Part shown: positions 2,819 through 17,408 of the stretch, in pieces
Layout of the letters: the number at the start of each line of letters is the position of its first letter
How positions within the stretch are numbered: position 1 is the stretch's first letter
Source of the DNA: Candidatus Melainabacteria bacterium
GTDB taxonomy: Bacteria; Cyanobacteriota; Vampirovibrionia; Obscuribacterales; Obscuribacteraceae
NCBI GenBank assembly: GCA_003242885.1
Contig: QKMZ01000015.1
Span: 124,001 to 188,000, forward strand
Length of the DNA: 64,000 nt
Direction: 5' to 3'
The notes under the pieces: model-generated
Seen by the model: only the letters and a program-made list of their open reading frames with translations
Database searches by the model: none
What the model was told of the DNA's origin: nothing
Made by a program: the position numbers and the translations under genes

Positions 2819-5095
2819 TTGCGACGAAAGAGAAGAGCTGAAGTTGCATCAACAACTGAAAAGTTGTGCGCTTGCTTCGCCTTTGAACAAGAACTTCGTC
2901 AGGTTGCAGCGAGTCTTTGCAGCACGTTGTTGCTTGCTAACAGCTTTGTACCGGCATGTTTTGCTCAGTCGAATAATGTCTCCAAACAATCCTCGGTATT
3001 GGCACCAAATACAGTGGCGCCGATATCGCCACCACCTGTAGCGCCGCCAATTTCTACTCGGATTCCCGCAAAAATTTCTGTTCCACCGGTGAATACTTCG
3101 ACTTTGAACGGCGCAGCAGCACCAGGCAGTCTTTTGGACAAAGGGCCTTTTAATCCTTCGAACCTCCCAGTCATAACTCCGTGGAAACCTCAGATAGAAG
3201 CTCCCGCGAAACCTTCGATAGACGCGACATCAAAATCTCCTGGGACCGCTCCATCTAAATCACTGGTGGACACTGGGTCAAAACCCCCTGTGGGATCTGT
3301 TTCAAAACCTCCGGTTTCCGCCCATCCTGCAGCAGGTGCGTCGAGCTTCACCCCTTTTAATTCCAGTCCTTCGGCAACAAAATCAACTGGCGGTTCTGCG
3401 AGTGCTCCTGTCAAATCCGCACCTCTGCCTGCACATGCGCCTGGCGCCGCATCTCCAGCCTCGGGAGCGTCCTCCGCGACTCCTTTATTAAAGCCGCAAG
3501 TGCCGAAAATCGCAGAGCCTGCACCGGCACCGGATATCAATAAAGCTCCCGCCGGAAGTCCAGGTTCGGCTCCGGGAGCGGGAGCGACTACGAACGCTAA
3601 TACTGAGGAAAAATACCCAGCGATTGCCCACCTCGAAATTCTGACCTTTGGAGAAACGCATCCAGCGATGGCCATTAGCGATCGTCTTGCTAATCTGGAA
3701 AGTACTGTTTTCAAAGAAACACATCCGACCGATTCTTTGTTTTCGCGCACAGAGCGTTTACAGAAGGTTCTTGTTGGAAGCGAAGGACCTACACCATACG
3801 AAAGTCCGCAATATCGTCCTCCCGATCTGCCTTCCTATGCGCGTGTTCCGCCCGCGACTCCCGCTCAAGATCAACCCAATACAGGTTGGACCGAACCCCC
3901 GCGCAGTCCTGTGCCGACTGGTAATCCAGGCGAAAGTCAATATTCTTATTTTGATGAAATCGCGGTTCTTCCTGAGAATCGTGTGGTCGTAAACAGTCAG
4001 CAACTGCAGGATTACTTCCTGGAGATGGTTAATAACGAGCGCCGAAAGGTCGGATCGCCACCGCTGGAAATCGATCAAATTGCTGAAAAGCTTGCCACCG
4101 AGCACGTAACGCAATTGGCTGAGCGAGCGCAAATTTCGCATTCCAATACAAGAGGTGAGAATCCGGATCGGCGCTATACACTGCTGGGTGGAACTGACGC
4201 GGTAACCGAAAGTTTGGTATCGCTTAAAAACAGCGAACTTGGTAGCCGCCGTCTTTATCGCGGTGCCGCTGCAAAACTGCTGCGCGTGCTCATGTCCCAC
4301 CAGGACGATCGCGACGCGCTAACCTCGCGCGATACCACTCATGTTGGTTTTGCCGCGGAGTGGACTGCCGATCACTCTCGCTTGATCGCATGCGCTGAGC
4401 TGGTTTCCAAACACGCAATTATCCACCCTGTTCCAGACAAGGCACACATTGATGAAAAAATCGACGTGAAAGGCGTGATGACTCCGCCGTATCAATTCGT
4501 TCGCGTGACACTGGCGTGGGAAGGCGGCAACAGCAATCTCGCCAGTGTTGCTGATGAATCGGACGAAGCCCTTCCTTATTTCCCGCCTCTCGATTACATT
4601 GCGTATCAAAAGCGCGCTGAAAGCGGCGGGCACGACAAAGCCATCATGATTTTGAAAGGCGTAGGTATTGCGGCGGCAATCGCGGGTGGCGTTTTCATGC
4701 CGCCAGTCGCGCTTGCCGCGCCTCTGATTGCGGTTTCGGGCAGTGGAAGTGGTGAACACAAGCCGGCATCGGAAATTCCGGTTAAAGGCGGAGTCAAACT
4801 GGAAGGATCCGTCTTCGAGACGAAAGTGCCGCTCAGCAATGAAGGCAAGGACGGGCTATACTACCTTACGGTGTGGGGCTCAGAAGGTCCGGGTGGCAAA
4901 CCTGTCCCTATTTCCAGAAGAGTCATTTATGTTTCCGGTGGAAAGGAAGACGCCACCAAAACAACCAATTCAGATACCGGCGAAATAACCAGCGATCAAA
5001 CGTCTAAGAGTGAGCAAACCTCTAAGAAAGACGAGAAAAGTACAAAAAATGCAAAGAAAGCTAAGAAAAACAAGAACGCAACGCCATCCAGCTGA
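2819..5095 (+). CDS. secreted CAP-domain (SCP/PR-1-like) protein with Pro/Ser-rich linker
   Basis: The 758-residue protein starts at TTG. It has a basic N terminus and a hydrophobic stretch ending PACFAQS near residue 50, consistent with export. Residues about 55-260 form a Pro/Ala/Ser/Lys linker with repeated KPP, KSP and SKP. Next comes a module (HLEILTFGETHP, DRLANLES, about 268-320) that also occurs in the metalloprotease gene at 26854. The CAP domain follows at about 395-530, with YFLEMVNNERRKVG, LATEHVTQLAER and ISHSNTRGEN. A hydrophobic Ala/Val/Gly segment lies near 610-640 and the C terminus is Lys/Ser-rich. CAP proteins act outside the cell in varied roles, so no activity is assigned. 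The VWA gene starts within its last codons. Confidence 0.85.
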   Translation: MRRKRRAEVASTTEKLCACFAFEQELRQVAASLCSTLLLANSFVPACFAQSNNVSKQSSVLAPNTVAPISPPPVAPPISTRIPAKISVPPVNTSTLNGAAAPGSLLDKGPFNPSNLPVITPWKPQIEAPAKPSIDATSKSPGTAPSKSLVDTGSKPPVGSVSKPPVSAHPAAGASSFTPFNSSPSATKSTGGSASAPVKSAPLPAHAPGAASPASGASSATPLLKPQVPKIAEPAPAPDINKAPAGSPGSAPGAGATTNANTEEKYPAIAHLEILTFGETHPAMAISDRLANLESTVFKETHPTDSLFSRTERLQKVLVGSEGPTPYESPQYRPPDLPSYARVPPATPAQDQPNTGWTEPPRSPVPTGNPGESQYSYFDEIAVLPENRVVVNSQQLQDYFLEMVNNERRKVGSPPLEIDQIAEKLATEHVTQLAERAQISHSNTRGENPDRRYTLLGGTDAVTESLVSLKNSELGSRRLYRGAAAKLLRVLMSHQDDRDALTSRDTTHVGFAAEWTADHSRLIACAELVSKHAIIHPVPDKAHIDEKIDVKGVMTPPYQFVRVTLAWEGGNSNLASVADESDEALPYFPPLDYIAYQKRAESGGHDKAIMILKGVGIAAAIAGGVFMPPVALAAPLIAVSGSGSGEHKPASEIPVKGGVKLEGSVFETKVPLSNEGKDGLYYLTVWGSEGPGGKPVPISRRVIYVSGGKEDATKTTNSDTGEITSDQTSKSEQTSKKDEKSTKNAKKAKKNKNATPSS

Positions 5096-6242
5096 GCTGC
5101 TTGTTTTTGCTCTTGCCATTGGCACCGCCAGTGGTGTAGCTATTTCTCTGGTAAACGGAACAGTTGCATACGCTGGCGACAACAAAGCGCCGCTTCCGCC
5201 TGTTTCACCAATGCCTGAGCCCGCCGGATGGCCGATGCCAGCGCCGACTTACCAGCCACCGCCGCGCCGCAATCCATTACCGGGTGCGTATCAAGGCGCT
5301 CCTGCGTTGCAGTCCGGAACTCAGAATACAACGCTGCAAACCGGAACGCAGAACACAATGCTACAAACCGGAACGCAGAACACGATGTTGCAGACCGGAA
5401 CGCAAAACACCATGTTGCAAACCGGAACGGTCGGTACGATGATCCAGAGCGGAGCCAACTCTAGCCTCATTCGAGGCGGTGTTGATAGAGATGCCGGACC
5501 AGTCAACATTTTGATTTTGCTCGATGCTTCCTACAGCATGAAAGAGAACCTTGAGCATGGAATGCAAAAGATGGATGCTGCAAAAATGGTCTTGCAGCAG
5601 GCGCTTTCGCGTGTGCCTTCTGATGTGAATTTAGGCCTGCGAGTTTTTGGTCAAGGATACACTGGCGATCCTTTCATGGACTGCAAACAGAGCGCACTGC
5701 TCGTGCCGCTGGGGCAGGGCAATCGGCGCTCGATTATTGAGCGAGTGAGGCAAGTTCATCCGTATGGGCTGACGCCTTTGGAGTTTGCGCTGCGACAAGC
5801 GGCTGAAAACGATTTGCAAGGCCTGAACGGCCCAAAAACTCTGATTTTGATTTCGGATGGCGCCGATACTTGTGGCGGCAATCCATGCGAGTTCATCAAG
5901 CAACTGCCGCGCATGGGCATCAAACTAAAAGTCGATATAGTTGGACTGAGTTTGAAGAATCGACCAGACGATATCATGGCGCGCCATCAGTTGAATTGCA
6001 TAACTGAACAGTCAGGCGGCAAGTATTACGACGCCAACACTGCGGCTCAGTTGATTGAGAGCATTTCGGCTAGCGTCAACAAAGCAATTTCCGGGCGCGT
6101 CATAATCAAGCCTGGCACCCCAGCTAAGAATGTCGATACACCCGTTGAGTTGCAGGAATTGAAACTACAAGAGCAGCCGCTCAAGGCTCCTGAAGCGCAG
6201 CCATTGAAAGCTCCCGATGCGCAGCCATTGCCTCAGAAGTAA
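5049..6242 (+). CDS. exported VWA-domain protein with nonapeptide repeats
   Basis: The ORF opens at GTG 5010, but ATG 5049 gives a conventional signal peptide: basic MQRKLRKTRTQ, hydrophobic LLVFALAIGTASG, cleavage near AYAGD. I prefer 5049, which gives 397 residues. After a Pro-rich stretch come six nine-residue repeats (LQTGTQNTM and variants). A von Willebrand A domain follows, with the MIDAS motif DASYSM, the downstream Thr in GLTPLEF and the Asp in LISDGADTC. The C terminus repeats PLKAPEAQ/PLKAPDAQ. VWA domains bind partners through a divalent metal. The gene overlaps the CAP gene by 47 bases in another frame, so the two are probably co-expressed surface proteins. The cysteines in DTCGGNPC may form a disulfide. 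Confidence 0.85.
   Translation: MQRKLRKTRTQRHPAELLVFALAIGTASGVAISLVNGTVAYAGDNKAPLPPVSPMPEPAGWPMPAPTYQPPPRRNPLPGAYQGAPALQSGTQNTTLQTGTQNTMLQTGTQNTMLQTGTQNTMLQTGTVGTMIQSGANSSLIRGGVDRDAGPVNILILLDASYSMKENLEHGMQKMDAAKMVLQQALSRVPSDVNLGLRVFGQGYTGDPFMDCKQSALLVPLGQGNRRSIIERVRQVHPYGLTPLEFALRQAAENDLQGLNGPKTLILISDGADTCGGNPCEFIKQLPRMGIKLKVDIVGLSLKNRPDDIMARHQLNCITEQSGGKYYDANTAAQLIESISASVNKAISGRVIIKPGTPAKNVDTPVELQELKLQEQPLKAPEAQPLKAPDAQPLPQK
5307..5468 (+). repeat. 27-base coding tandem repeat, six units
   Basis: Six in-frame units encode LQSGTQNTT, three copies of LQTGTQNTM, LQTGTVGTM and IQSGANSSL. The middle units are nearly identical in DNA, and the outer ones have diverged. Slippage or unequal recombination could change the copy number. 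It lies inside the VWA protein, between the signal peptide and the VWA domain. Confidence 0.9.
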
Positions 6243-9503: not shown

Positions 9504-11069
9504 CTAGAGCTGAGTTTCCGGCTTTTGCGAGATGGACATTTTCGAGACGACGCCGCGCGTTACAGCATCAGCAACATTGCCATATTGATTGATAAGCAGC
9601 ATTGGATAGATGCCCAGAATCAAGATTGAAAGGCAAAGTGCCCAGCCAACGACTTTCTCAGTGCTTCTTGCATCTGACAAGTGACCTTGCCATTTTGCGA
9701 GCAGTTCACCGAAGAAGAGACGCTTGAAAAGCCAGAGCATATAGCCTGCTGTCAAGATGACGCCGGTGCAGGCAATGACGATTGCTGTTTGAACCATCGC
9801 GTGGTGCGGCGCTGTTGTGAGCGCCATGGGCGAAGTGTAGGCGCCGTAGAAGACGGCTGCTTCAGCAACGAATCCTGCCAGCCCCGGCAAGCCGAGGTTT
9901 GCCATGACTGCGAACATCCACATATAAAATACGTAAGGCATTTCTTTCGCCAGACCGCCGCCGATTTCGTGAATGTCACGAGTATGCGTGCGTTCGTAGA
10001 CACAGCCTACGAGGAAGAACAGCGCGGCTGAAATTACGCCGTGGCTGATCATCTGGAAGATGGCGCCATTGACGGCTGCTGCCGACAGGGAGCCAATTCC
10101 CAAGAGCACGAAGCCCATGTGGCTGACGCTGGAGAAAGCGATGATGCGCTTCATATCTGTTTGAACCAAGCAAGCCATTGCTGCCCAAACAATATTGAAT
10201 GCGCCCAGTGCCATGATCCAGTGACCGTAATCGATGAATACGGTTGGAAAGAAGTCCATGCAGATTCTGACCAAACCGTAAGAGCCCATCTTGAGGAGCA
10301 ATCCGGCAAGGATCATTGAAATTGGTGTAGGTGCTTCAACGTGAGCATCCGGCAACCATGTGTGGAATGGGAAAGACGGAAGCTTGATGATGAAAGCGAG
10401 GAAGAATCCGAGGAAGGCAATCAGTTGGGCTGACTTGGGCAGCAGCGGCGCTACTTGCGCAAGCTTGACCATGTCGAATGTGACCATTGCCGGATTGTCG
10501 ACTGTCAATGCGAAGTACAGATAGAGCAGACCGCCCAGCATCAGCACGCCGCCAAAGAACGTGTACAGCAAAAATTTCATTGCTGCGTAATCGCGTCTGG
10601 GACCACCCCAGATTGCGATCAAGAAGTACATCGGGACAAGCTCCAATTCGTACATGATGAAGAATTGCAGCAGGTCAAGAGAAACGAACACTCCGAGAAT
10701 CGAGAGTGTTAGAAGCATTACGAAGCTGTAAAAAAGTTTTGGTCGATTATCGCCAATTGATTCAGATGCCAGCACCGCCATCAAAGTGACGAAGGCTGTC
10801 AGGACCACAAGGCAGAGGCTGAAGCCGTCGACGCCAACGTGGTACTGCACCGGAAACGGTGACGTGATCCAGGTCACGATTTGCTCGAATTGATAACCGG
10901 CAGTACCGGGTTTGAATGACTGTGTGGCGAATGCTGAGAGCGCGAGCATTGCGGCGCTGAATGCAATTGCCAGCTTTCGTGCCCACTCTGGAGGCATCAG
11001 CGCGATTGCGACTGACCCGATGAGAGGTGTCAAGAGAATAGCTGTGAGAATCGACTGAGGTTGGTCCAC
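9504..11069 (-). CDS. nuoM: NADH-quinone oxidoreductase subunit M
   Basis: The 521-residue polytopic membrane protein carries the NuoM/NuoL/NuoN antiporter-like core. It has about 14 hydrophobic segments, the conserved ELELVPMYFLIAIWGG with its proton-channel Glu, KLPSFPFHTWLPDAHVEAPTP, a Lys-containing FFLAFIIK segment, and SSVSHMGFVLLG. It is one of the three proton-pumping subunits of respiratory complex I in the cytoplasmic membrane. The start is GTG with GGAG six bases upstream. It diverges from nuoL across a 355-base gap. In most genomes nuoL-M-N are consecutive, so the inversion here and the absence of nuoN are unusual. Confidence 0.95.
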   Translation of the reverse strand: MDQPQSILTAILLTPLIGSVAIALMPPEWARKLAIAFSAAMLALSAFATQSFKPGTAGYQFEQIVTWITSPFPVQYHVGVDGFSLCLVVLTAFVTLMAVLASESIGDNRPKLFYSFVMLLTLSILGVFVSLDLLQFFIMYELELVPMYFLIAIWGGPRRDYAAMKFLLYTFFGGVLMLGGLLYLYFALTVDNPAMVTFDMVKLAQVAPLLPKSAQLIAFLGFFLAFIIKLPSFPFHTWLPDAHVEAPTPISMILAGLLLKMGSYGLVRICMDFFPTVFIDYGHWIMALGAFNIVWAAMACLVQTDMKRIIAFSSVSHMGFVLLGIGSLSAAAVNGAIFQMISHGVISAALFFLVGCVYERTHTRDIHEIGGGLAKEMPYVFYMWMFAVMANLGLPGLAGFVAEAAVFYGAYTSPMALTTAPHHAMVQTAIVIACTGVILTAGYMLWLFKRLFFGELLAKWQGHLSDARSTEKVVGWALCLSILILGIYPMLLINQYGNVADAVTRGVVSKMSISQKPETQL

Positions 11070-11424
11070 TTCAAACTCCGATTGGTTTACTTTGTCTGCG
11101 TTTTTGCAGAGTCTGGCTAACGAGGCCAGAAGGTTTCTAAATTGTGCGAGACAAGTATATCGAGGTGTCGCGCGGCATACTAGGAAGAACCTCTAAAAAC
11201 GCGCTTACAGATGAACTGTTGAAATGAAAAATCTTCTCACTCAAAGAAACACTATAAATATCAACCGCACTTAATCCGCATCACACACGATGGCTCTAAT
11301 ATTAATGTGCAATCGTTGGACTAAGTGTGAAAAACCTCTTGGTAACAGCGAGTAGGCAATCAAGAAGTTCTTGAAATCGGCGACAAAATAGGCGAAACAA
11401 AAGCCAAAGCAAAAGGATAGTCTC
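11070..11424. other. 355-base divergent promoter region between nuoM and nuoL
   Basis: The region is A/T-rich in its centre. It contains a TATAAA (11253-11258) and several AT-rich stretches, but no pair with a convincing -35 box on either strand. Both nuoM and nuoL must be transcribed from here. No hairpin, riboswitch or coding frame stands out. Confidence 0.5.
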
Positions 11425-13452
11425 GTGGATCAATCAATTGATTACTGGCGTCAGGTAATCGAACTGTCACCGTGGATCGTGGCAACGCCTTTCCTGGTCG
11501 GATTCGGCATCATTCTGCTCAATACGCTGGTTGGGTCGAGTACCAAACTAGTCAAGACTCTATCCATGGTGGCATCCGTAGGCGGTGTGCTCTACGGGTT
11601 CATCCACTCGCTGCTTTTGTTCCAAGCGCTCGTCAAGCACCCCGAACTGGTGCCGTGGGTCAAGAACATTCCTTATTTCACTTCCGCGAGTTTCACTTTC
11701 ACGGTCGGTGTTCTTATAGATAACCTGGCAGTCTTCATGATGCTGGTTGTCACTTCCGTTAGCTTGTTGGTGCAAATATATACACACGGCTATATGCGGG
11801 AAGATCCTGGATATTCGCGTTTTTATTGCTACCTTTCTTTATTTACTGGCTCGATGCTCGGGCTTGTGGTGGCAACCAACCTTTTCCAATCTTTTATCTT
11901 CTGGGAACTCGTCGGCGTCTGCAGTTACTTCCTCATCGGATTCTGGTGGAATAAGGAGAGCGCTGCGCAAGCCTGTATGAAAGCTTTCGTCATCAACAGA
12001 GTTGGTGACTTCGGATTCCTTGTAGGTATCCTCTGGTTCTTCGCTGTCACCTACAGCGTATGGTCCGGACATCCTGTGCTGCAGTTCTTCGACAAAGACG
12101 GTTATGACGTAGCCGGTGTCATTCAAAAGGCATACCTTGCGAAGAATCTTGATGTGCAAACACTTTGGTTCATCTCCATGGTCATGTTCATGGGACCGAT
12201 GGCAAAGTCTGCACAGTTCATGCTTCACACCTGGCTGCCGGACGCGATGGAAGGTCCGACACCAATCTCCGCACTCATCCACGCTGCTACCATGGTTGCA
12301 GCAGGTATCTACCTCGTAGCTCGCGCATATCCGATCTGGCAGTCTGCTGACGGAACACCGGGCGGCATGGGCTTGACCTTCGTTGCCATCATCGGTGCAG
12401 CAACTGCATTTATGGCTGCGACAATCGCAATGAGTCAGTACGACATCAAACGCGTATTGGCTTGGTCGACAGTTTCACAGCTCGGATATATGTTTGTCGG
12501 CTTGGGGGCAGGCGCCTACACAGGCGGCTTGTTCCACCTTTTCAATCACGCATTCTTTAAGGCTATGCTCTTCCTCTGCTCCGGCGCCGTCATTCACGGA
12601 TTAGCCGGCGAGCAAGACATAAGAAAGATGGGCGGCTTGAAAAAGAGCATGCCCATCACAGCGATTTGCTTCTTGATCGGGACTATCTCAATTTCGGGAT
12701 GCCCAGGCTTCAGCGGATTCTTCTCTAAAGATGAAATCATCGGCGCAGCCACGGCTATGGATCCGATGCTTGGCGGCGTGATGATTTTGACCGCCGGTCT
12801 GACTGCCTTTTATATGTTCCGTGTTTACTTCATGACATTCGAAGGCGCATATAGAGGTAACGCACACCCTCATGAATCCCCACTGGTAATGACTGCGCCG
12901 CTCATGGTTTTGGCTGTGCCGTCCATCCTGTCCGGTTATCTGGGCTTCAACTTTGCTTCACTGGGCGCCATTTCATTCACGGGCGAGCACGGTAAAGCAT
13001 TCTCCAACTGGTTCGGTTCTTTCATTTACTTCAAGCAGCCCGTCTTTGAAGGCATTAACGGAACCGTTATGCTTTCTTCTATCGGCTTTGCTGCTGCCGG
13101 TTTCCTCGTCGCATATCTGATGTATGTGGCAGGCTCGCTGAAGTGGAACCAAGCGATTGCAGAGAGCAAATCTCCGCTTGTACAAGGCATCTATCAGTTC
13201 TCCTTCAACAAGTGGTATTTCGACAACCTTTACATGGGCTTGATTCAAAAGGTCATCCTGCCTGGATTCCAAGCATTTTGGAAGCTGATCGATATCCTCA
13301 TCGTCGATAACATCGTCAACGGTGCAGGCATCGTGGCTCGAGGCATGGGCGAAGGTTTGCGTTATGCGCAAAACGGCAGAGGTCAATACTACGCACTCGT
13401 AATATTCGGATGGGTAGCTGGTCTTACCGTTCTTGTATTCTTCCTTCGCTGA
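11425..13452 (+). CDS. nuoL: NADH-quinone oxidoreductase subunit L
   Basis: The 675-residue product has the typical NuoL length and layout. About 16 membrane helices include SFIFWELVGVCSYFLIGFWW, KSAQFMLHTWLPDAMEGPTPISALIHAATMVAAGIYL and LAWSTVSQLGYMFVGLG. A lateral-helix region and a final membrane anchor complete the C terminus. The conserved Glu in FWELVG and the Lys and His of the central helices form the proton channel. The GTG start at 11425 has AAAGGA eight bases upstream. A His-rich membrane gene follows after 90 bases and may share the transcript. Confidence 0.96.
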   Translation: MDQSIDYWRQVIELSPWIVATPFLVGFGIILLNTLVGSSTKLVKTLSMVASVGGVLYGFIHSLLLFQALVKHPELVPWVKNIPYFTSASFTFTVGVLIDNLAVFMMLVVTSVSLLVQIYTHGYMREDPGYSRFYCYLSLFTGSMLGLVVATNLFQSFIFWELVGVCSYFLIGFWWNKESAAQACMKAFVINRVGDFGFLVGILWFFAVTYSVWSGHPVLQFFDKDGYDVAGVIQKAYLAKNLDVQTLWFISMVMFMGPMAKSAQFMLHTWLPDAMEGPTPISALIHAATMVAAGIYLVARAYPIWQSADGTPGGMGLTFVAIIGAATAFMAATIAMSQYDIKRVLAWSTVSQLGYMFVGLGAGAYTGGLFHLFNHAFFKAMLFLCSGAVIHGLAGEQDIRKMGGLKKSMPITAICFLIGTISISGCPGFSGFFSKDEIIGAATAMDPMLGGVMILTAGLTAFYMFRVYFMTFEGAYRGNAHPHESPLVMTAPLMVLAVPSILSGYLGFNFASLGAISFTGEHGKAFSNWFGSFIYFKQPVFEGINGTVMLSSIGFAAAGFLVAYLMYVAGSLKWNQAIAESKSPLVQGIYQFSFNKWYFDNLYMGLIQKVILPGFQAFWKLIDILIVDNIVNGAGIVARGMGEGLRYAQNGRGQYYALVIFGWVAGLTVLVFFLR

Positions 13453-13542
13453 TAAGGCGGCGGCGGAAACTCTGAAAATAGGAATTTGAAAGTCAGGCGC
13501 ATAGCGCTATTCGGTAATTGTTGAGAGGAGAGGCACAGGCAA

Positions 13543-14196
13543 ATGGGTTCAGATCACGGACATGACCACGGTTCTTGCAACCACGACCACGGACATGATC
13601 ACGGTCATGATCACGAGCACGAGCATGGTGCCGGATGCTCTCACGAGCACGCGCATGACCACGGACACGGACACGGAGATGACCACGGTCATCACGGCGG
13701 CGAAGAGTTCGTACCTACAAGCAGCGTGCATGACAAATTCTTGCTGCTCTGCGCCACAATATGCGGGTTGGGCTTCATCTATCTCGGTTATTTTTGGATG
13801 ACAGCTCTGCCGCTTGCAGCTGTGACAGAACATCACGAAGGTTCCGCACACCAGGAAATGCTTGATGAAGCGGGTTTGGGTAAGGGCTCGGAACACGGCG
13901 CAGAGCACGCATCAGAGCACGCATCAGAGCATGCAACGGAAGCTCCGAAGACTGAAACTGCTGCTCCCGGAGGAGAAACGGCTCCAGCGGGTGAAACTTC
14001 AACTGGCGGAGAGACTGCTGCACCTCACGGCGAGACCGCACCAGCCACTGAAGGTGGCGAGCACTCGAGTACTGCTCCTGGTGCTGAACCCGCAAAGTCC
14101 GATGCAGGCTCTGAAGGTCAGCCAGGTTCCACAACAGGCGCGGAAACCACCACCACTGCAGGTCCCGGGACTTCGACCGGCGAAGCTGCTCACTAG
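13543..14196 (+). CDS. His-rich single-pass membrane protein
   Basis: In the 217 residues, positions about 3-55 are almost entirely His, Asp, Gly and Glu (HGHDHG.., HGHGHGDDHGHH) with one Cys in each of GSCNHD and GAGCSHE. One membrane helix follows (KFLLLCATICGLGFIYLGYFW). The outer part is a Glu/Ala/Thr/Gly/Pro-rich tail with repeated SEHASEHATE. Such His tracts bind Ni, Zn, Cu or Co in other proteins (HypB, SlyD, metal-transporter loops). Here no catalytic domain is attached, so a metal buffer or sensor is only an inference. A GAGAGGAGAGG stretch about ten bases upstream supports the start. The position just after nuoL suggests a link to the respiratory membrane, unproved. I do not recognise a named family. 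Confidence 0.8.
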   Translation: MGSDHGHDHGSCNHDHGHDHGHDHEHEHGAGCSHEHAHDHGHGHGDDHGHHGGEEFVPTSSVHDKFLLLCATICGLGFIYLGYFWMTALPLAAVTEHHEGSAHQEMLDEAGLGKGSEHGAEHASEHASEHATEAPKTETAAPGGETAPAGETSTGGETAAPHGETAPATEGGEHSSTAPGAEPAKSDAGSEGQPGSTTGAETTTTAGPGTSTGEAAH

Positions 14197-14209
14197 ATGA
14201 ACTAATGAA

Positions 14210-14231
14210 GGGGCGGCATACATGCTGCCCG
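14210..14231. repeat. palindromic intergenic repeat, family B copy 1
   Basis: The 22-base near-perfect palindrome has arms GGGCGGCA and TGCTGCCC. It matches the reverse complement of 46437-46458 at 21 of 22 positions. It sits 14 bases past the His-rich gene and is followed by a family A element. Confidence 0.7.
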
Positions 14232-14233
14232 GA

Positions 14234-14262
14234 GCTGGCGAGCCGCCGGCACTCCCAGGCTT
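14234..14262. repeat. GC-rich palindromic intergenic repeat, family A copy 2
   Basis: This is a 27 of 29 match to 6269-6297. A third, partial form follows at about 14271-14300 (AGCCGCCAGGATGGCGGCGCTCCC), with the stem GCCGCCA/TGGCGGC. Lying directly after family B, it makes a compact repeat cluster between the His-rich gene and korA. Confidence 0.7.
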
Positions 14263-14488
14263 AGCAAACTGAGAGCCGCCAGGATGGCGGCGCTCCCAGC
14301 GTTTCAAACCTTAGAAATCTGACCTTTACATTAAGGCGACGCTTGCCATCTGAAGGCGGGCTTATGATACCCTTTAAGTTGGCCAGGAAAGGCCCTCTGA
14401 GGCGGCGTTTAGCGAAGCCGTCCGGTGTTGTCTATCTTGTGGGCCCGTTGCGTTGCGGGTTCGGGGTTCGATGGTAGAGGGAGTAAGG

Positions 14489-16495
14489 ATGCAAGAAGTC
14501 ACAATTGGAATCGCAGGAGCTGCCGGTGACGGTCTCGATAAATCGGGCGACACCTTGGCGAAAACCTGTGGAAGGCTGGGTCTGCATGTGTATGCATACA
14601 ACAGCTATCAGTCAATCATCCGCGGCGGCCACATCTGGCTTCGCGTGCGTATTGGCGATAAGAAAGTTTTGAGTCACGGCGATAATTTGAATGCCGTGAT
14701 TTGCCTTAACCAAGATTCGTTGGAAAGACACGCGCCTGAAGTAAATGAAGGCGGTGTAATCATCTTCAATTCGGACAAGCTCAAACTTGATCCGACATTG
14801 GTGCCGAAAGGTGTACAAAGCCTCGGTTTGCCGATGAAAGAAATCTGCAAAGAAGTTGAAGCCGAACACGGCGCTCTTCAACCGATCATGCAAAACACCG
14901 TTGCTGTAGGCGCAGTCCTCGCACTCGCCAACTTGGGCTTGGAAGAAGCCGGCAGCGTTATGCACGATACCTTCGCTCACAAAGGCGACAAGGTCATCAA
15001 TCTCAACGTTTCGCTCTTGAAAGTCGGCTACGACTACGCCAAGGCAAACGCAAAAGTGTTCACTAAAGAATGGACATTCTCCAAGAAGAGAAGACCGTTC
15101 GTCACCGGCAACGAAGCAATCGCATTTGGTGCAGTTGCTGCCGGTTGCAAATTCTATTCCGCTTATCCGATGACACCGGCATCGACCATCCTTCACTGGA
15201 TGGCTGCTCACGCGCAGAAAGTCGATGTTTGCGTCAAACAGTGCGAAGACGAACTATCTGTAATTAACATGGCAATCGGAGCCGGCATCGCTGGCGTTCG
15301 TTCTATGTGCGGTACTGCAGGTGGTGGCTTCGCGTTGATGACCGAAGCCATCGGTATGGCAGGCATCATGGAAGTGCCGGTAGTTTGCGTTGAGGTTCAG
15401 CGCGGCGGACCGTCCACCGGTTTGCCTACCAAAACCGAGCAAGGCGATTTGTTCCAAGTCTATGGCGCATCGCAAGGCGAGTTCCCGAAAATCATCGTTG
15501 CACCTCGCGACGTAGCTGATTGCTATGACACGACAGTCAACGTATTCAACCTGGCAGACAAATATCAGCTGCCGGTAATGCTCATCTCGGACTTGCTGCT
15601 TTCGGAACACCCGGAAACAGTTGATCCAGAGAAGTTCTACAGCGATGTCAAAATCGATCGTGGACAAGTTGTCACCGAGTGGGACATCGAAGCAAAAGGC
15701 AAGTTCAAGCGCTTCGAACTCACTGATTCCGGCATCTCACCGAGAGCTTTGCCAGGCACGCTCAACTGCAACTTCGTGTCTGCAACCGACGAACATGACG
15801 AAGAAAGCATCCTGATTTCGGATATGTTCACCGCACCTCCGGTTCGCCGCAAAATGAACGAGAAGCGTTTCCGCAAAATGGACAACCTTCTCAAAGAAAT
15901 TCCGGCACCGAAGCTCGAAGGACCTGCCGATGCTGATGTCACCCTGGTTTGCTGGGGCTCAACAGCCGGCGTAGTCGAAGAAGCTGCAGAAATATTGACT
16001 GCTGCTGGCGTGAAGACCAACTTCCTCGTACTGAAGTGGATCGTTCCTTTCCACGCTAAGGAAGTTCAAGAGATTCTCTCCAAGTCGAAGAAGAAGATTT
16101 CTGTCGAAGTCAACTTCACCAGCCAAATGGCACGTTACATCAAGATGGAAACCGGAGTTTCGATGGACGGACACGTCAATCGCTATGACGGCGAACCGCT
16201 TGAACCTCAAGAAGTAGTTGGCCGCGTTCAAGACATTCTCAAGGGCAAAACGCTCGATTTGAATGTTTCCGAAAACGATGCCAAAGAAATTGCATATCAC
16301 AACCTGCGTACTCACTATGCAGAAAAACTGCGCCCCATCAAAGCAGTGCAAGAGTCGGCCAACGGACACGGCGAGCCAGTTTGGAACGTCGAGCTCGTCG
16401 AAAGAGCTTCTGGCAAAGCTGGTGGCAAGATGAAAATCGGCGTGCATACGGGTTCGACCTATTCCTTTGAAAAGGAACCGGTTGAAAGCAAGTAA
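14489..16495 (+). CDS. korA: 2-oxoacid:ferredoxin oxidoreductase, fused gamma-alpha subunit
   Basis: The ORF opens at 14453, but ATG 14489 follows GAGGGAGTAAGG and begins directly with the conserved domain (MQEVTIGIAGAAGDGLDKSG), giving 668 residues. Residues about 1-190 form the gamma domain (IGIAGAAGDG, YNSYQSIIRGGHIW). The alpha, pyrimidine-binding domain follows from GNEAIAFGAVAAGCKFYSAYPMTP, with the phosphate and CoA-facing blocks further on. With KorB it oxidatively decarboxylates a 2-oxoacid, usually 2-oxoglutarate, to an acyl-CoA and reduces ferredoxin. The gene pair, separated by 34 bases, is an operon. The 2-oxoglutarate assignment comes from the gamma-alpha fusion plus short beta subunit; pyruvate or branched-chain oxoacids cannot be excluded. 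Confidence 0.9.
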   Translation: MQEVTIGIAGAAGDGLDKSGDTLAKTCGRLGLHVYAYNSYQSIIRGGHIWLRVRIGDKKVLSHGDNLNAVICLNQDSLERHAPEVNEGGVIIFNSDKLKLDPTLVPKGVQSLGLPMKEICKEVEAEHGALQPIMQNTVAVGAVLALANLGLEEAGSVMHDTFAHKGDKVINLNVSLLKVGYDYAKANAKVFTKEWTFSKKRRPFVTGNEAIAFGAVAAGCKFYSAYPMTPASTILHWMAAHAQKVDVCVKQCEDELSVINMAIGAGIAGVRSMCGTAGGGFALMTEAIGMAGIMEVPVVCVEVQRGGPSTGLPTKTEQGDLFQVYGASQGEFPKIIVAPRDVADCYDTTVNVFNLADKYQLPVMLISDLLLSEHPETVDPEKFYSDVKIDRGQVVTEWDIEAKGKFKRFELTDSGISPRALPGTLNCNFVSATDEHDEESILISDMFTAPPVRRKMNEKRFRKMDNLLKEIPAPKLEGPADADVTLVCWGSTAGVVEEAAEILTAAGVKTNFLVLKWIVPFHAKEVQEILSKSKKKISVEVNFTSQMARYIKMETGVSMDGHVNRYDGEPLEPQEVVGRVQDILKGKTLDLNVSENDAKEIAYHNLRTHYAEKLRPIKAVQESANGHGEPVWNVELVERASGKAGGKMKIGVHTGSTYSFEKEPVESK

Positions 16496-16529
16496 GTACT
16501 CGGGCAAGCAAATTATTTAAGAGGTAGAA

Positions 16530-17408
16530 ATGGCTACTGTTATTGAACTTCCAGTCGAAACATACAAAGGACCAGTCGATCCAGACTGGTGCCCAGGTTG
16601 TGGTGACTTCGGCGTACTGCGCTCAGTGCAAACTGCAGCCGGTAAGTGCGGCATTCACCCTAAAGACCTGCTCGTCGTATCCGGTATCGGATGCTCTTCC
16701 AACTTGCCGGGATTCATTCATGCTTATGGAATCCACAGCTTGCACGGACGCAGCGTTCCGGTAGCAACCGGCGCCCACCTCGCCAATACCGACTTGAAAG
16801 TCGTTATCACCGGCGGAGACGGCGATGGCTACGGTATCGGAGTTGGTCACTTGATTCACGCAATGCGTAGAAATCTCGATGTTACCTACGTCGTCATGGA
16901 CAACCAAATCTATGGTCTGACTACAGGTCAGGCTTCGCCGACATCTGCAAAAGGTGTTAAGACGAAATCCACACCGGCAGGCAACTTCGAATCTCCGCTC
17001 AATCCTCTGGTAATGGCAATTACCTCGGGTGCAACTTATGTTGCTCGTGGATTCTCCGGTGAGCAAAAACAACTCGGCGAACTCATCGCCGGTGGTATCG
17101 CTCACAAAGGCTTCGCATTGATTGATGTGTTCAGCCCGTGCGTAACCTACAACAAGATCAACACCTATCCTTACTTCAAAGAGCGTGTATACAAGCTCGA
17201 AGACGAAGGATACGATCCAACCAACTTCTACAAAGCAATTGAAAAAGCCTACGAATGGGGCGACAGAATACCTTTGGGAGTTGTCTATAAAACCGAGCAA
17301 GAGACCTATGAAGACAATGAACCTGTCCTCAAGAAAGGTCCACTCGTGAAGCAAAAAACTGGACTTTCGAAAGAAGTCCACAAAGAATTGATCGAAGAAA
17401 TGATCTAG
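16530..17408 (+). CDS. korB: 2-oxoacid:ferredoxin oxidoreductase beta subunit
   Basis: The 292-residue thiamine-diphosphate-binding subunit has DWCPGCGDFG at about 19-28 and SGIGCSSNLPGF near 50, with cysteines that fit the iron-sulfur cluster of this family. The ThDP/Mg motif is GGDGDGYGIG, followed by DNQIYGLTTGQASPTS. A Shine-Dalgarno AAGAGG precedes the ATG. It completes the enzyme with korA and ends before a good terminator at 17452. The beta subunit has no fused ferredoxin domain, so electrons go to a separate ferredoxin. A 272-residue antisense ORF over this gene is a shadow. Confidence 0.93.
   Translation: MATVIELPVETYKGPVDPDWCPGCGDFGVLRSVQTAAGKCGIHPKDLLVVSGIGCSSNLPGFIHAYGIHSLHGRSVPVATGAHLANTDLKVVITGGDGDGYGIGVGHLIHAMRRNLDVTYVVMDNQIYGLTTGQASPTSAKGVKTKSTPAGNFESPLNPLVMAITSGATYVARGFSGEQKQLGELIAGGIAHKGFALIDVFSPCVTYNKINTYPYFKERVYKLEDEGYDPTNFYKAIEKAYEWGDRIPLGVVYKTEQETYEDNEPVLKKGPLVKQKTGLSKEVHKELIEEMI

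Follow-up and report, generated by a model that had tools for sequence, protein, structure and literature searches.

Directly behind nuoL, the genomes of one family of Obscuribacterales carry a gene for an undescribed family of one-helix, His-tailed proteins, which most likely represent an extra subunit of complex I and whose resemblance to NDUFB3, a His-tailed protein of complex I in animal mitochondria, has apparently arisen by convergence. We give a probability of roughly 55% to the reading that the product is an accessory (supernumerary) subunit, specific to this lineage and with a single helix, of the complex I of this family, with a metal-binding His tail in the cytoplasm. The synteny, selection, and topology were computed here, whereas the association with complex I and the binding of metal are what we infer. 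In such an arrangement, the small protein would be made together with NuoL and its helix would sit on the NuoL of a complex I that lacks NuoF. The disordered N-tail, on the cytoplasmic side at the proton entry to NuoL, would bind a divalent metal (Zn, Ni, Cu, or Co) and could in this way protect the pump from inhibition by free metal, or tune it.

The small gene and its locus

The window analyzed here is a stretch of 64,000 nucleotides from a Candidatus Melainabacteria bacterium, and the region around the small gene contains the following features:

9504 to 11069, minus strand: nuoM, divergent from nuoL and within the conserved block
11425 to 13452, plus strand: nuoL (NdhF-like), distal antiporter-like subunit of complex I, on the same strand as the small gene and 90 nt upstream of it
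13543 to 14196, plus strand: single-pass, His-tailed small membrane protein of 217 aa
13543 to 13698, plus strand: N-terminal His/Asp/Gly tail, residues 1 to 52, with CxHxH, predicted to be disordered and cytoplasmic, under purifying selection
13699 to 13830, plus strand: conserved core, consisting of GGEEFVPTSSVHDK, the transmembrane helix, and PLAAVT (profile A1, 43 positions)
13831 to 14193, plus strand: C-terminal tail, predicted to be periplasmic, with His/Glu repeats and then a fast-evolving Thr/Ala/Pro/Gly-rich part
14453 to 16495, plus strand: korA, alpha subunit of 2-oxoacid:ferredoxin oxidoreductase, conserved downstream neighbor, likely start near 14489
16530 to 17408, plus strand: korB, beta subunit

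The 217-aa ORF starts with ATG, about 9 nt downstream of the SD-like AGGAGAGG, and is separated by exactly 90 nt from the nuoL stop at 13452, as the preliminary description had it. The His/Asp/Gly tract claimed there was also recovered, with 20 His in the 50-residue stretch where they are densest; the other 38 proteins of the window average 2.0% His and contain at most 6 per 50 residues, and the binomial probability of at least 19 His in 50 residues is about 6e-20. One transmembrane helix, as had been claimed, was modeled by AF2 for the protein alone at about residues 62 to 88, with a pLDDT of 94 to 97. The supposed lack of an enzyme domain agrees with our search of Pfam and NCBIfam, which found no domain in the small protein. 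The same description had proposed a second His/Glu-rich outer tail, which is correct for the first ~45 residues of the C-tail, where its His are chiefly found; the remainder is Thr/Ala/Pro/Gly-rich, variable in length, and under weaker selection, the C-tail as a whole being Glu/Thr/Ala/Pro-rich. Scanning positions 13380 to 14560 for terminators and promoters revealed none, nor were inverted repeats found between the small gene and korA, and a literature search for Obscuribacterales together with histidine-rich retrieved no paper.

Profiles of the family gave no match among PDB chains, and specifically none to the cyanobacterial subunits NdhP and NdhQ when A1 and A3 were run against all chains (E ≤ 10), with A3 grazing NdhF (E = 0.91). 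This weak match raised a duplicated NuoL helix as a possible origin, which was rejected after hhalign of the core against NuoL gave a probability of 0.1 of 100. We also modeled nuoL and the small gene with AF2 as an in-frame read-through (stops as Ser, DNA otherwise unchanged; 36 rows, 18 paired). NuoL folded, its best PDB match being cyanobacterial NdhF, and the small protein formed its helix with the His tail disordered, but the helix had a pLDDT of 72 to 92 with NuoL attached versus 94 to 97 alone, so that attachment gives no gain in confidence for the helix.

A DNA search of the 6.7-Mb host genome located HDHxHDH in just two genes, the small gene and one coding for an unrelated protein of 371 aa that also combines a His/Asp-rich N-tract with a single helix, followed by a Gln/Pro-rich tail (G000:C13, ~382,800 to 383,900; L147:1336-2451). 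The latter lies outside the complex I loci seen here and shows that His/Asp tails are not exclusive to the nuoL-adjacent gene. Elsewhere in the window, positions 5010 to 6242 code for a von Willebrand-like secreted protein with the N-terminal repeat LQTGTQNTM; there is an overlap with the end of the SCP/CAP-like gene that precedes it (2819 to 5095).

Distribution of the family

Named relatives whose NuoL is 85 to 95% identical to that of the host are "Candidatus Melainabacteria/Obscuribacterales" MAGs, and the locus is also found, at 64% identity, in Ca. Obscuribacter phosphatis, which places the host in Obscuribacterales. We refer to the host's taxonomic family within Obscuribacterales (non-photosynthetic Cyanobacteriota) as f1 and to its sister family as f2. 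The end of nuoL is assembled in 43 f1 genomes, and in 42 of them the small gene comes next; of these 42, 30 were read directly downstream of nuoL and 12 (G060 to G066 and G069 to G073) were held out of the profile. The core profile gives one strong match per f1 genome, and in all 12 held-out genomes this match is directly behind nuoL. The small gene lies at a contig end in G003 and G030, and only a truncated nuoL is available in G067. The sole exception is G024, with nuoL and no small gene, while the four f1 genomes without nuoL (G008, G010, G025, and G068) have no copy of it either, so the gene co-occurs with the core genes of complex I.

Members from the 30 genomes read downstream of nuoL range from 58 to 217 aa (one read, L004, shows 262 aa since it runs into an assembly gap). 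They share the core consensus xxxxIPExSxQDxxLxLxAxxxxxGLxxxGxxWxxxPL and an N-terminal His/Asp tail that is present in all of them and highly variable in length. A chance or low-complexity ORF is ruled out by the dN/dS values given below and by conservation over some twenty genera.

Beyond f1, the gene is absent after nuoL in the class relatives. Genomes of f2 keep nuoL (and korAB where the contig reaches) in the same order, with a stop-ridden gap in place of the small gene, and scanning the class and a 386-genome sample of the phylum with the core profile found nothing else convincing outside f1. Judging from these scans, the gene is restricted to f1, having either arisen there or been lost elsewhere. 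As G024 and f2 have nuoL without it, complex I can do without the small protein.

A probable partner of NuoL rather than KorAB

The preliminary description had connected the protein with complex I from its position only. The synteny in 42 of 43 genomes, together with the co-absence and the co-divergence with NuoL, agrees with that connection. However, the block of divergent nuoM and nuoL, the small gene, korA, and korB is conserved as a unit, so synteny alone is not specific to nuoL. As korA and korB are downstream in nearly all loci, the small protein could instead be a partner of KorAB that tethers the 2-oxoacid:ferredoxin oxidoreductase to the membrane. Three observations make this highly improbable and favor nuoL: the small gene follows nuoL after 3 to 132 nt (median, 33) and is separated from korA by a wider gap (median, 234 nt); f2 and G024 keep korAB after nuoL without the small gene; and the core diverges with NuoL. 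Using raw distances over 43 core columns, the partial correlation of core and NuoL given KorA was 0.59 (jackknife, 0.54 to 0.62), a value reached in 0 of 500 permutations, against -0.04 for core and KorA given NuoL.

Tails, selection, and topology

Within the genus, the His tail shows a dN/dS of 0.02 to 0.10 and the core one of 0.01 to 0.16, so the tail is purified as strongly as the helix, while the C-tail (0.16 to 0.45) evolves faster under weaker selection; several of these comparisons are saturated at silent sites. Among 30 members, the N-tails contain 2 to 21 His each and are 23% His and 21% Asp/Glu overall, compared with 8% and 15% in the C-tails. Several members have just 2 to 4 His in the N-tail, and most contain HxH, a few having spaced His alone. 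Long CxHxH tails occur at four separate places on the NuoL tree, so the length of the N-tail is evolutionarily labile and what all members have in common is a short His tail, the long His tract of the host genus probably being an expanded form of it. With a His-rich tract under selection, the small protein is a candidate for metal binding, which is chemically likely for the N-tail given its HxH and CxHxH repeats, its composition, and the purifying selection. As Lys/Arg residues number 24 in the N-side flanks of the helix versus 11 in the C-side flanks (30 members), an N-in topology is predicted, with the N-tail in the cytoplasm and the C-tail in the periplasm.

Complex I of the host

The genes of complex I are split in the host, with nuoA, B, C, D, H, I, J, and K on another contig (L139; assigned from reading translations) and nuoM and nuoL beside korAB in the window (9504 to 17408). 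Neither the host nor its genus has the C-terminal domain of NuoF, in agreement with the partial complex I without NuoEFG described in Melainabacteria (PMC6349859). Ferredoxin has been suggested as the donor for a similar complex I in Saganbacteria (PMC6349859), and the neighboring KorAB would make reduced ferredoxin. The split genes, with nuoM and nuoL beside korAB, and the missing NuoF domain suggest a ferredoxin-driven complex I in the host genus.

Two other subunits are unusually long: NuoK has 202 aa, about twice the usual length, owing to an N-terminal extension (L139:6717-7325), and NuoI has 263 aa with a long Ala/Lys/Pro low-complexity C-tail (L139:7986-8777). The host lineage may have a general tendency to add tails to its complex I subunits. 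A separate membrane complex of the group-4 hydrogenase/formate-hydrogenlyase type is found at L140:2654-9941, with genes assigned by eye as HyfB-, NuoH-, HyfE-, HyfF-, NuoCD-, and NuoB-like.

Alternative explanations

The preliminary description had considered a metal buffer or a metal-sensing part. The latter found no support, the small protein having no signaling domain. A buffer or store for metal that is anchored in the membrane and co-transcribed with nuoL, but lies outside complex I and has the helix as a mere anchor, would explain the His/Asp composition of the tract and its CxHxH motifs, and it has a parallel in the other His/Asp-tract, single-helix protein encoded elsewhere in the genome. 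We nevertheless consider it unlikely, as the most widely conserved part of the family is the helix core with IPExSxQD, several N-tails carry only 2 to 4 His, the core tracks NuoL, and the small gene is missing wherever nuoL is. A His-tailed accessory subunit is the better description because the conserved core consists of the helix and IPExSxQD, the long His tract being a lineage-variable elaboration of a short, universal His-bearing N-tail.

Among readings in which the protein does serve complex I, its His/Asp/Glu tails could form a surface that collects protons or buffers pH at the proton entrance and exit of NuoL, not a metal ligand. Titratable groups abound in both tails, which are predicted on both faces of the membrane beside a proton pump, but the HxH spacing and recurring CxHxH point to metal ligands. 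The antenna groups of known proton pumps are on structured surfaces, unlike the N-tail, which is predicted to be disordered, and we regard this role as quite improbable. Equally little credence is given to a factor for the assembly or insertion of NuoL/NuoM that is not kept in the mature enzyme. Its location next to nuoL, the small single-pass form, and its dispensability in G024 and f2 would suit such a factor; it has no specific support, however, and co-divergence with NuoL suits a permanent contact equally or better.

Comparison with known systems

In bacteria, complex I is generally regarded as the minimal core enzyme, and few accessory subunits are known in it. A 2021 study of the complex I proteins of Melainabacteria covered core subunits, with accessory subunits unmentioned (PMC8235220).

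The tract itself resembles those of His-rich proteins for metal storage or chaperoning (Hpn, HypB, and SlyD type) and the His-rich loops of the zinc transporters CDF and ZIP, as it is HxH-rich, disordered, and likely to bind Ni, Zn, or Cu. In contrast to HypB, SlyD, CDF, and ZIP, the small protein has no chaperone, GTPase, or transporter domain (Pfam), and its tract is carried on a conserved helix beside nuoL. The anatomy is like that of NdhP and NdhQ of cyanobacterial NDH-1L, very small single-helix proteins in a complex I that also lacks an NADH module. They contact NdhD and NdhF (PMC6992706) at the distal membrane arm and stabilize the NdhD-NdhF pair (PMC6992706, PMC4131877), and NDH-1L requires NdhP (PMC4131877), but their size, less than 5 kDa, leaves no space for a long His tail.

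The closest functional parallel is NDUFB3 (B12), an accessory subunit of mitochondrial complex I, which, like the small protein, is small and has a single TMH and N-terminal HxH repeats, found here in most members. Its helix is bound to TMH12/13/15 of ND5, the NuoL homolog, with the N terminus in the matrix (PMC8762328), an arrangement that has predicted or proposed counterparts in the small protein. NDUFB3 carries HGHGHEH near its N terminus, the number of HxH differing between species; the activity of METTL9, on which the methylation depends, supports respiration through complex I, and an HxH peptide has a lower affinity for zinc once methylated (PMC7873184). In the host, a METTL9-like (DREV) histidine methyltransferase gave only partial matches (~100 of 265 positions) of a generic methyltransferase kind that also appear in control genomes, and these were not counted. 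Ten full-length family members had no Pfam match to NDUF_B12 at E ≤ 10, and in the small protein the helix starts right after the core motif, without the helical matrix-type domain. Having found the same anatomy and no sequence homology, we treat the resemblance to both NDUFB3 and NdhP/NdhQ as an analogy, in the case of NDUFB3 most likely a convergent one.

We can only tentatively entertain, and rather doubt, the fuller parallel of an independent bacterial NDUFB3-like subunit whose helix sits on NuoL and whose HxH tail, lying where protons enter, binds metal and regulates the pump in response; if true, it would indicate that metal control of complex I has a general site. If the f1 protein is a family-specific subunit whose His tail parallels that of NDUFB3, single-helix additions at the tip of NuoL would have arisen more than once, and the small protein would offer a simple system for the role of the N-terminal histidines of NDUFB3.
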